DNA of 64,000 nt from Photorhabdus heterorhabditis (lineage in GTDB: Bacteria > Pseudomonadota > Gammaproteobacteria > Enterobacterales > Enterobacteriaceae). The stretch is taken from assembly GCF_018448905.1 (NCBI RefSeq), contig NZ_RCWA01000017.1, positions 1 to 64,000 on the forward strand, written 5' to 3'. The notes under the pieces are model-generated. The model did not search any database. It had not been told where the DNA came from and saw nothing but the letters and a program-made list of their open reading frames with translations. Below, in pieces: positions 13,407 through 25,724 of this stretch; the first letter of the stretch is position 1, and each line of letters opens with the position of its first letter. The translations under genes and the position numbers were made by a program.

Positions 13407-13505
13407 GCACTTCCGGGTAACAATTTTTGTTATTCCAGGAAAGGCACGACATTGCTCACATTGCTTCCAGTGTTTTTTAGCCAGCTCGATTGCTGGCTTT
13501 TTTTT
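13407..13505 (+). ncRNA. ryhB: RyhB iron-responsive small RNA
   Basis: RyhB is an Hfq-dependent RNA made under iron starvation that represses mRNAs for iron-using proteins such as sodB and the sdh genes. Bases 13444-13471 are identical, from memory, to the E. coli core that pairs with targets (GCACGACATTGCTCACATTG followed by CTTCCAGT). The RNA ends in the same AGCCAGC...GCTGGCT terminator plus eight T (13479-13505). A Fur-box promoter sits just upstream. The 5' part differs from E. coli. The 5' end is estimated from promoter spacing. It occupies the sapA-pspF gap, not the yhhX-side position known in E. coli. Confidence 0.92.
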
Positions 13506-22859: not shown

Positions 22860-23843
22860 GTGGAAACGATTTACGGTTCATCATTGAAAGATGCTGATGC
22901 CGTCTATACCTGCCAATTTGATGGAGATGGTGGTATTACACCGATTAATATCAATGTACCCGCCACACCAGCTCAACCTTTCTGGCAACATTTGGATTAC
23001 CATAATTCCAGGAGTTATCGTTGGATTATGGATACGGATTTGTTACCAGAACCTATCAAAACGGGGTTGGCAGGGGAAAGTTTGAGGCCGAAAATGATCC
23101 GTACCGGTGACGGTACGATGATCACTCTCCGAACAATTAATAACAATGAAAGTGAACGTCCTGAGCAATTGGTAACCTTCCGTATTTATATCAATGATAA
23201 AATCATTGTTTCCAGCTGTCATCGTGAAGTTCATTCACTTGGACAGGTGTTAAGTGATTTGCAAAATGGTATAGGTGCGAAAGCGACCGGGCACTGGTTG
23301 GTAGAAATGGTTGATACTATAACCGATGAGGTTGGTAACTTTATTGAAGATCTGCATGACAATCTTATTGAGCTTGAGAATACGATTTTGGATCAACAGA
23401 TGCCGGGGCGGGGAGAATTAGCGTTGCTACGTAAACAACTGATTATTCTGCGTCGTTATATGGCGCCCCAAAGAGATGTGTTTTCACGTCTTGCTAGTGA
23501 AAGATTTCCCTGGATGAGTGATGAAGATCGTCGCCGGATGCAAGAAATTTCTGACCGTTTGGGGAGAGAACTGGATGATTTGGACGGTAGCATTGCCCGA
23601 ACGGCAGTTATTTCTGATGAAATTACCTCGATGATGGCAGATGCCATGAATCGTCGTACCTATACTATGTCATTACTTGCTATGATTTTTTTACCAACAA
23701 CATTCCTGACTGGGTTATTTGGTGTCAATCTTGGCGGTATTCCTGGTAATGAATATTATTTGGGTTTCAGTGTGTTTTGTTTATTACTATTGGGATTGAT
23801 TTTATTTGTTGCGTGGTGGTTAAGGCGAAGTAAATGGCTATGA
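22860..23843 (+). CDS. zntB: Zinc transporter ZntB
   Basis: ZntB is a CorA-family pentameric inner-membrane transporter for zinc. The 327 residues match E. coli. A large cytoplasmic domain with a long helix (about 150-260) is followed by two C-terminal spans separated by the GVN signature in FGVNLGGIPGNEYY. The start is GTG at 22860 with AAGGAG seven bases upstream. The gene is followed by the fnrS locus, as in E. coli. Confidence 0.95.
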   Translation: METIYGSSLKDADAVYTCQFDGDGGITPININVPATPAQPFWQHLDYHNSRSYRWIMDTDLLPEPIKTGLAGESLRPKMIRTGDGTMITLRTINNNESERPEQLVTFRIYINDKIIVSSCHREVHSLGQVLSDLQNGIGAKATGHWLVEMVDTITDEVGNFIEDLHDNLIELENTILDQQMPGRGELALLRKQLIILRRYMAPQRDVFSRLASERFPWMSDEDRRRMQEISDRLGRELDDLDGSIARTAVISDEITSMMADAMNRRTYTMSLLAMIFLPTTFLTGLFGVNLGGIPGNEYYLGFSVFCLLLLGLILFVAWWLRRSKWL

Positions 23844-23910
23844 CGGTCAAAGGGTTATATTAAAGAAATAAAACATAATTACTAAAGCTTTGCTAAAACT
23901 GGCCTTTAAT

Positions 23911-24049
23911 TTGAGATATATACCCAATAGATTTCAAGATGCATCGCGACGGCAAGGGAGCGAATCCCCGGGAGCAGAGATAACTCTGTGACCGGGGTGA
24001 GTGAGTGCAGCCAACAAAGAGGCAACTTGAAAGATGACGGGTATATCAA
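23911..24049 (+). promoter_or_regulatory. Split FNR binding site of fnrS
   Basis: The half-sites TTGAG (23911-23915) and ATCAA (24045-24049) are separated by an ERIC element. Without it they form TTGAG-ATAT-ATCAA, nine of ten defined positions of the FNR consensus TTGAT-N4-ATCAA, centred about 42 bp before the likely fnrS start. A CATGAT -10 is at 24072-24077. In its present form the site is probably not functional. Confidence 0.7.
23921..24043 (+). repeat. ERIC element inserted in the FNR box of fnrS
   Basis: A complete 123-bp ERIC of the CCCCGG/CCGGGG subtype with TA on each side (23919-23920 and 24044-24045). Removing it with one TA joins TTGAGATA to TATCAA and recreates TTGAGATATATCAA. 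Confidence 0.9.
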
Positions 24050-24153
24050 TATTCACCAAGAATAATTGAGGCATGATGACTTCCGCAGGTGAAAACAACG
24101 TTAAGCGATGAACGTTGTGCTCTATAATTGTAGTTTTTCTCACATTGAATCTT

Positions 24154-24208
24154 TCTGTGACCGGAGTGAGTGCAGCCAACAAAGAGGCAACTTGAAAGAT
24201 AACGGGTA
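24154..24208 (+). repeat. Partial ERIC inside fnrS
   Basis: Only the right half of an ERIC is present, from TCTGTGACCGGAGTGAGTG to CTTGAAAGATAACGGGTA. The left half is missing, so this is a truncated or recombined copy. Confidence 0.85.
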
Positions 24209-24230
24209 TAGAATAATTGCCCATTCCTGT

Positions 24231-24263
24231 GCCGATATTATTTTCTAATATCGGCTTTTTTTA
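24231..24263 (+). terminator. Intrinsic terminator of fnrS
   Basis: A stem GCCGATATTA / TAATATCGGC is followed by seven T, the 3' end expected for an Hfq-dependent small RNA. Confidence 0.8.
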
Positions 24264-24732
24264 TTTTTCATTATTATCTTAATTAGAATAAGAAACTAAT
24301 AAATGAAAATTAAGGTGAAAAATAAATTACCGTTCTTAAATATGTCTAAAGTGGTACTTATACGGAAAAAATCATTGTTCATTCGGATTGAGGCAGTTAG
24401 TACGGAAACGATGACAGACCGAGTTTGTCGGACCAATTAAGAGGAGGTCGATAGTAAGCACCGTTGATAACTGCTATGCCCTGGCGTATCAGCTAATCCC
24501 TGTTGGCGGATCTTGTTGGTACGCTCATACGACACGTGGGTTTCGCTACGAGAGATTTCCTCTGTACCCAATCAGAGACGATAACTGTGAATCCAATTAT
24601 TCCGTGTTAAATAACCTGTTACTTTTTTGTGACGATTAACTTGCCATATAAATAGCTGGCTGTAGTCGTTCGCCTTTAGTGAAAATAGTCGTAAGTGCTC
24701 GATTGGGCGGGGAGTCGTCACCTACAGATATG
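24264..24732. other. Intergenic stretch upstream of ttcA without a recognised gene
   Basis: About 470 bases. One plus-strand frame is open for roughly 75 codons (about 24412-24640, ending FCDD) but has no convincing start or family. E. coli carries dbpA between fnrS and ttcA; no trace of dbpA is seen here. Confidence 0.4.
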
Positions 24733-24827: not shown

Positions 24828-25724
24828 ATGAATCAGAAAGATACGAGAAAAGAGACACTGGAATTCAATAAGCTTCAGAAACGCTTAAGGCGGAATGTTG
24901 GCAATGCTATTATTGATTACAATATGATTGAAGAAAATGATATTGTGATGGCATGTATCAGTGGTGGTAAAGATTCATTTGCGATGTTAGATATCCTATT
25001 GAATCTGCAAAAGGCTGCACCAATAGAATTTAAAGTAGTTGCAGTGAACCTTGATCAGAAGCAACCTGGTTTTCCTGAACACATTTTACCTCAATATTTT
25101 GAGAGTCTGGATATTCCATATTATATCGTAGACAAAGACACATATTCAGTTGTTAAAGAGAAGATACCGGAAGGTAAAACCACCTGTGGGTTATGTTCAA
25201 GGCTTCGCCGTGGAACACTTTATTCTTTTGCTGAAAAAATTGGGGCAACAAAAGTTGCACTTGGACATCATTTAGACGACATTGTTGAAACTCTATTTCT
25301 TAATATGTTCCACGGCTCACGTATGAAAGCTATGCCGCCAAAGTTACGATCTGATGATGGACGTAACGTAGTCATAAGGCCACTAACATATTGTCGAGAG
25401 AAAGACCTTGTTAATTATGCGGAATATAAAGAGTTTCCAATTATTCCTTGTAATCTATGTGGTTCTCAAGAAAACCTACAGCGGCAGGCGATTAAAGCTA
25501 TGTTGGTAGATTGGGATAAGAAAACACCAGGCAGGGTGGAGAGTATTTTCAAATCTATTCAAAATGTTAGCCCAAGTCAATTAGCAGATAAAGCGCTTTT
25601 CGACTTTGTCAATTTGCCGCTGTATCGTGAAGGTGAAAGAGAAGAATACGCATTTAACGAAGCAGTAATATCGTCGACTAACATTGATGAATCAATGTTT
25701 ATTGATATTAGTATTGATATGTGA
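24828..25724 (+). CDS. ttcA: tRNA 2-thiocytidine(32) synthetase TtcA
   Basis: TtcA thiolates cytidine 32 of certain tRNAs using ATP and an iron-sulphur cluster. The 298-residue protein has the PP-loop SGGKDS at 45-50, the cluster Cys pair C120-x-x-C123 ([12 protein letters not shown]) and a third Cys in [38 protein letters not shown] is the conserved core. The N-terminus starts [17 protein letters not shown], as in the family, though a shorter start cannot be excluded. It is transcribed alone from the promoter at 24733. Confidence 0.95.

Follow-up and report, generated by a model that had tools for sequence, protein, structure and literature searches.

The repeat described here is known in Photorhabdus as MITEPlu5 and occurs in P. 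luminescens TT01 as 552 complete copies with a typical length of 123 bp. MITEPlu5 duplicates a TA target, has ends similar to those of IS630-type elements and is reported to be highly mobile, with 47 indels between two strains (PMC6267812). The gene that it meets at the present locus encodes the small RNA FnrS. In E. coli, FNR activates fnrS directly from a single site at -42.5, supported by a ChIP-seq peak (PMC3688515), and in two plant-pathogenic enterobacteria fnrS is up 28- and 52-fold without oxygen (PMC3349551). FNR sites may match their consensus only in part (PMC3688515). Within the E. coli RNA, pairing-region mutations have been placed at nt 4-5, 47-49 and 57-59 (PMC8595263).

Both systems coincide in the window, the whole 64,000-nucleotide stretch of Photorhabdus heterorhabditis DNA that was analysed. 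An ERIC (MITEPlu5) copy sits inside the FNR box of fnrS (Table 1). The stretch 23911-24049 reads TTGAGATA, TA, TACCC...GGGTA, TA, TCAA, with TTGA beginning at 23911 and TCAA finishing at 24049. When the flanks are rejoined over a single TA they give TTGAGATATATCAA, a 9/10 match to the FNR consensus TTGATNNNNATCAA, centred at -42.5 from the FnrS start in the Rfam match. An initial annotation of this DNA had proposed just such an insertion, with a 9/10 box restored about 42 bp upstream of FnrS once the element and one TA are deleted; its coordinates, the distance to FnrS and the 123-bp core are borne out. It had treated the case as one of a promoter only. The promoter ERIC stands, but a remnant of a second ERIC within FnrS itself was overlooked, and the locus is that of a doubly hit sRNA. 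Our preferred explanation, to which we give a probability of roughly 0.8, is that an ERIC insertion split the class II FNR box of fnrS, that FNR binding at -42.5 and strong anaerobic induction would thereby have been lost, and that a separate ERIC left its remnant in FnrS.

Table 1. Features in and around the fnrS locus of the window
Feature	Position	Strand	Details and basis
zntB-like gene, upstream neighbour of fnrS	22860-23843	+	327 aa; open frame (ORF listing)
Distal part of former FNR box, TTGAGATATA	23911-23920	+	Now ~167 bp upstream of FnrS; sequence, relatives' unbroken box, position
Left TA of target duplication	23919-23920	.	Sequence and relatives' empty sites
ERIC / MITEPlu5 copy, core TACCC...GGGTA	23921-24043	+	123 bp; 127 bp with both TAs
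Right TA of target duplication	24044-24045	.	Sequence and relatives' empty sites
Proximal FNR half-site ATCAA	24045-24049	+	Still present at -40 to -36
Probable -10 hexamer CATGAT of fnrS promoter	24072-24077	+	Inferred from position relative to relatives
FnrS small RNA	24085-24259	+	RF01796, 78.3 bits (gathering score 60), model 1-119
Remnant of a second ERIC, right half (element positions 67-127), after FnrS nt 70	24154-24210	+	57 bp; repeat search
FnrS terminator hairpin, 10 pairs, then T run	24231-24255	+	Intact; scan and fold
ttcA-like gene, downstream of fnrS	24828-25724	+	

The decisive evidence for a split box comes from the relatives. A genus search covered 13 Photorhabdus genomes including the window's own, the single representative of its species, and FnrS was found in 13/13. 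The initial annotation had pointed to empty sites in other Photorhabdus as the check on its reconstruction, and the box is indeed unbroken in all 12 of the other genomes: TTGAGATATATCAA in 11 and TTGAGATAGATCAA in one, each 9/10 to the consensus, with the centre at -42.5 (11 genomes) or -41.5 (one). Their empty sites retain a single TA. A second collection of 12 named loci (9 Photorhabdus, 3 Arsenophonus) has TTGAGATATATCAA in 9/9 Photorhabdus, where eight are assemblies already counted and the one genome added, P. akhurstii, agrees; for locus L019 the match was taken from the printed upstream stretch. The three Arsenophonus boxes score 9/10, 9/10 and 8/10.

Conservation extends beyond these genera. 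The zone from -60 to -25 was scored at 50 further enterobacterial fnrS loci, and the top-scoring box was centred at -42.5 (48 loci) or -41.5 (2), with ties in position broken towards -41.5. The scores were 9/10 in 26 loci, 8/10 in 22 and 7/10 in 2; these loci are the 30 best and 20 chosen from the weakest of 113 non-Photorhabdus FnrS matches, so that the remaining 63 lie outside the count. Control stretches of similar width, taken within or near zntB and thus not independent of one another, reached a maximum of 7/10 (in 5/50 enterobacterial loci and 12/13 Photorhabdus). By score, 7/10 is therefore background, whereas 8/10 to 9/10 at one fixed place marks a conserved site. The single consensus mismatch of the reconstructed box, TTGAG for TTGAT, is no defect: 38 of these 50 enterobacterial loci likewise have TTGAG on the left.

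Little of this site is left in the window genome. The consensus positions at -42.5 now read GACGGGTATATCAA, a 5/10 match in which ATCAA is whole and the distal half scores 0/5. The class II arrangement (TTGAT-N4-ATCAA near -41.5) is thus absent here and present in 12/12 relatives. The zntB-fnrS gap was searched for another FNR site that might compensate, and the idea was rejected: nothing exceeds 7/10, and the best other site has that score at -32.5, a level also seen in the controls. The fnr gene itself is present as a complete open frame (NF008365 match, 514 bits against a cut-off of 228), and the encoded FNR has the N-terminal cysteines and the VETISR segment. Since the distal half-site is gone, no site scores above 7/10 and fnr is intact, loss of FNR-dependent fnrS induction in this strain, as the initial annotation predicted, is likely. 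The proposed course of events begins with a transposing ERIC (MITEPlu5, a TA-duplicating IS630-type MITE) that would have entered the TATATA of the class II box and displaced the distal half-site by about 125 bp. An FNR dimer would then no longer be able to bind at -42.5, leaving fnrS without strong anaerobic induction, either silent or weakly expressed regardless of oxygen. A further, separate ERIC would have inserted into FnrS behind nt 70, its left half being lost later; the remaining half lengthens the RNA and, by predicted folding, would tie up the pairing region at nt 45-60.

The promoter insertion belongs to an abundant family. With 40 of 515 candidates scored, 49 ERIC pieces were recovered, of which 44 are near-complete (the promoter copy and 43 others). 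ERIC clusters number 55 in a sample of 464 kb, made up of the window and 20 stretches of 20 kb each; this amounts to about one per 8.4 kb, and the 5.05-Mb genome is estimated to hold roughly 600 copies. The promoter ERIC folds end to end as a long imperfect palindrome (-50.9 kcal/mol). It differs from the genome consensus by three substitutions in 127 positions, inside a young cluster of 19 of the 59 full-length copies with three differences or fewer. In the 57 bases of the FnrS remnant there are two substitutions and a 4-base deletion, too few changes to order the two insertions. Elsewhere in the window, at 2097-2344, ERIC pieces (part, whole, part) lie head to tail within 250 bp, apparently ERIC in or beside ERIC. 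The promoter ERIC region (23918-24067) also gives sub-threshold Rfam matches to V_AS5 (24.9 bits, cut-off 96) and Ysr49 (22.2 bits, cut-off 95), RNAs that may be ERIC-type repeats. A 96-aa minus-strand open frame at 23934-24224 crosses both ERIC pieces and most of FnrS; misannotation of frames within ERIC as protein is the subject of a published warning (PMC6267812).

Target choice was assessed at 72 full-length ERIC sites, up to 30 of them from best-match loci that lean to young copies, with partial copies and copies lacking TA ends dropped. At 51 of the 72 (71%) the target TA has another TA directly beside it, on one side or both; the corresponding shares are 12% among all TAs and 21% among those in AT-rich surroundings. 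ERICs thus prefer TATA targets, and the fnrS box offers one: TATA is found in the FNR box of 11/12 other Photorhabdus, against 2/50 other enterobacterial loci. The density outside long frames is 0.48 clusters per kb, from which one would expect, without selection, about 0.06 ERICs per genome in a 123-bp fnrS and 0.006 in a box, taking all sequence outside frames of at least 120 codons as free for insertion. ERIC hits at fnrS need no special cause, and their rate is not extraordinary. Box scores over the 72 target TAs were 9/10 in one case, the fnrS promoter copy, 8/10 in 2 and 7/10 in 11, compared with 0.17%, 1.8% and 11% among the sample's total of 31,790 TAs. These numbers are too small to claim any enrichment of FNR boxes among ERIC targets, and restoration of a box is weak evidence when taken alone; what decides is the unbroken box in 12/12 relatives. 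A search by exact pattern for TTGA and TCAA separated by a 123-bp element, which misses elements of other lengths or with changed ends, found two places in the 13 genomes, fnrS and one in genome G002 (locus L128, 1501-1638). The latter was rejected as a second split FNR box, rejoining to TTGATATAATCAA with the half-sites one base too close. The rejoined sequence is a near-palindrome.

The second insertion lies inside the RNA. FnrS is 175 nt long in the window genome because it contains the ERIC remnant, whereas the other 114 of 115 family matches measure 106-123 nt; the RNA falls outside this range and the family model nonetheless matched from 1 to 119. By descent and synteny the locus remains an fnrS gene. 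The right-hand junction of the remnant reads GGGTATAGAATAATT, while the insertion site reads CTTTATACAGAATAATT or CTTTATATAGAATAATT in most relatives and a shortened CTTTATATAAATTG in the two nearest. Comparison of the junction with these empty sequences suggests that an ERIC entered the TATA stretch of FnrS and then lost its left half and a few flanking bases. A whole ERIC lies within about 2 bp of the same FnrS site in another genome (G010, locus L013), which also carries an additional ERIC upstream of its intact FNR box. G010 lies outside the family sample of 115, and its FnrS match, cut by the ERIC, spans just 86 nt; FnrS genes broken by a whole element could therefore escape the model.

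The upstream and downstream neighbours are presumably zntB and ttcA, names that we take from the initial annotation. The zntB-like gene shows 83-89% DNA identity to the copies next to fnrS in the other 12 Photorhabdus, with genome G005 aligned over the 3' two-thirds only. In a tree of zntB alone (13 Photorhabdus), the window genome joins G003 and G002 at 42% support, and the nodes that separate G010 from these three stand at 91-99%. Since G010 and the window genome lie apart on this tree with empty-site genomes between them, their ERICs in the FnrS linker are probably two independent insertions. The ttcA-like protein is about 95% identical in G002 and G003. In the other 10 Photorhabdus, the only ttcA homologue found is on the opposite strand relative to fnrS and 66-68% identical, and this looks like a replacement of the gene in the clade of the window genome, G002 and G003. 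The interval between fnrS and the ttcA-like gene gave no match to a known RNA family up to E 1. Farther away in the window, at 13440-13505, lies a complete RyhB sRNA (85.5 bits, cut-off 55).

How much the remnant matters to the RNA was approached through predicted folds of the RNA by itself, in the absence of Hfq. Both lengthened RNAs, those of the window genome and G010, retain the 5' stem-loop and the terminator. The mapped E. coli pairing positions all lie 5' of nt 70. In the window RNA, nt 45-60 are predicted to pair with the ERIC remnant with a mean probability of 0.76 and to be unpaired with a probability of 0.22; the unpaired probability in the 12 other Photorhabdus is 0.36-0.61, in every case above that of the window genome. 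The whole ERIC of G010 folds on itself, with nt 45-60 unpaired at 0.56 and their pairing with the ERIC at 0.00. A whole ERIC in FnrS may thus be tolerated, while half an ERIC may mask the pairing region. Over nt 1-70, FnrS is identical at 68/70 positions to its two nearest relatives, compared with 871 and 869 of 980 positions (~89%) for zntB. The RNA does not look visibly decayed, which could reflect either recent insertion or continued use.

A tentative proposal, somewhat short of an even chance, is that selection is relaxed: FnrS would be dispensable in some Photorhabdus and insertions would accumulate neutrally. This is compatible with the preferred explanation and adds to it a reason why the insertions were tolerated. 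Two of the 13 Photorhabdus, which are separated on the tree, carry an ERIC in one and the same part of FnrS, against the expected 0.06 or so per genome, and the window genome adds the promoter hit and a remnant predicted to mask nt 45-60. Against this, both linker insertions lie beyond nt 70 and leave the 5' region as well as the terminator untouched, as selection on a working RNA would allow, and the self-folding ERIC of G010 leaves nt 45-60 free. A broader reading, possible but doubtful, would make fnrS a recurrent ERIC target, with TATA in both box and linker, where a whole ERIC is tolerated and half an ERIC captures the pairing region. The FnrS arm of the response to oxygen would then, with the FNR box split as well, be in the course of being lost in this lineage, with its sisters keeping the ancestral promoter.

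Two further alternatives concern what the split promoter still does, and both appear unlikely. The first is that fnrS was rewired and not lost, with FNR-independent transcription from a promoter formed jointly by the ERIC end and native sequence, or by read-through from zntB, yielding oxygen-blind FnrS. The conserved first 70 nt and terminator would fit such an RNA, and outward promoters are known in other MITE families (PMC10969869). A weak TTGAAA - 17 bp - TATTCA pair can also be read by eye across the right ERIC end, but it breaks the scan rule on the last T of the -10. The scan itself returned no sigma-70-like site in 23840-24320 (shuffles: mean 1.5, sd 1.4), recognising neither a new promoter at the ERIC end nor a -35 upstream of CATGAT; having covered the window genome alone, its silence cannot tell a broken promoter from the native one. 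According to a review, ERIC had yielded no DNA motif besides the terminal repeats (PMC2229807), and even a transcribed RNA would, by the predicted fold, have its pairing region covered by the remnant.

A second, comparably unlikely course is that FNR still activates fnrS, more weakly, by way of the surviving ATCAA half-site or of a weak site nearby. The half-site that persists in the window promoter is the counterpoint to a full loss: it keeps its native distance from the start, and sites with partial consensus matches can work (PMC3688515). This is opposed by a distal half of 0/5 and by a best neighbouring site, at -32.5, that is matched in the controls. Misplacement of the ERIC from another copy during assembly is very improbable, for although the draft comprises 226 contigs and the copies are estimated at 600, the flanks rejoin over one TA to the relatives' exact sequence, which a wrong join of two loci would not do.

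In the window genome, a natural insertion has thus interrupted a single activator site ahead of a single conserved sRNA, with base-exact boundaries, and all relatives examined keep the promoter unbroken. The exactness of the break and the intact promoters of the relatives make the contribution of FNR to FnrS testable with closely related natural promoters. The promoter case is sharpened by the second ERIC in FnrS, which may mask the pairing region, and by a plausible target rule. The locus suggests that a TATA-preferring, TA-duplicating repeat tends to break regulatory boxes that contain TATA.

The fnrS case is a new instance of a known phenomenon, the insertion of a MITE into a promoter; among the matches listed from the openly licensed literature, none of the titles and abstract openings reports an ERIC within FnrS or an FNR box. 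The element itself matches MITEPlu5 and ERIC (IRU, RU-1; MITEEc1), sharing the 123-bp core, the TA duplication, the CCC near the ends and a copy number in the hundreds, and the difference is its place within an activator site. Correia elements (CREE/NEMIS) at Neisseria promoters, for example mtrCDE, likewise alter the regulation of neighbouring genes (PMC10969869). According to that article they work through an IHF site, through promoters or through RNase III processing, whereas the fnrS ERIC breaks an activator site. ERICs at the 3' ends of Yersinia genes also change neighbour expression (PMC10969869, PMC2229807), through an RNase E site that affects mRNA stability; at fnrS the step affected would be transcription initiation. 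Small repeats within conserved RNA genes have a precedent in the Rickettsia palindromic elements of the tmRNA and M1 (RNase P) RNA genes (PMC2229807), which are housekeeping RNAs, in contrast to the base-pairing sRNA at fnrS. Finally, FnrS of the window genome shares its 5' stem-loop and terminator with E. coli FnrS (RF01796) and its relatives, and the Photorhabdus relatives also share the box position at -42.5. It differs from them in a box split by an ERIC and in an RNA extended from ~120 to 175 nt by half of another.
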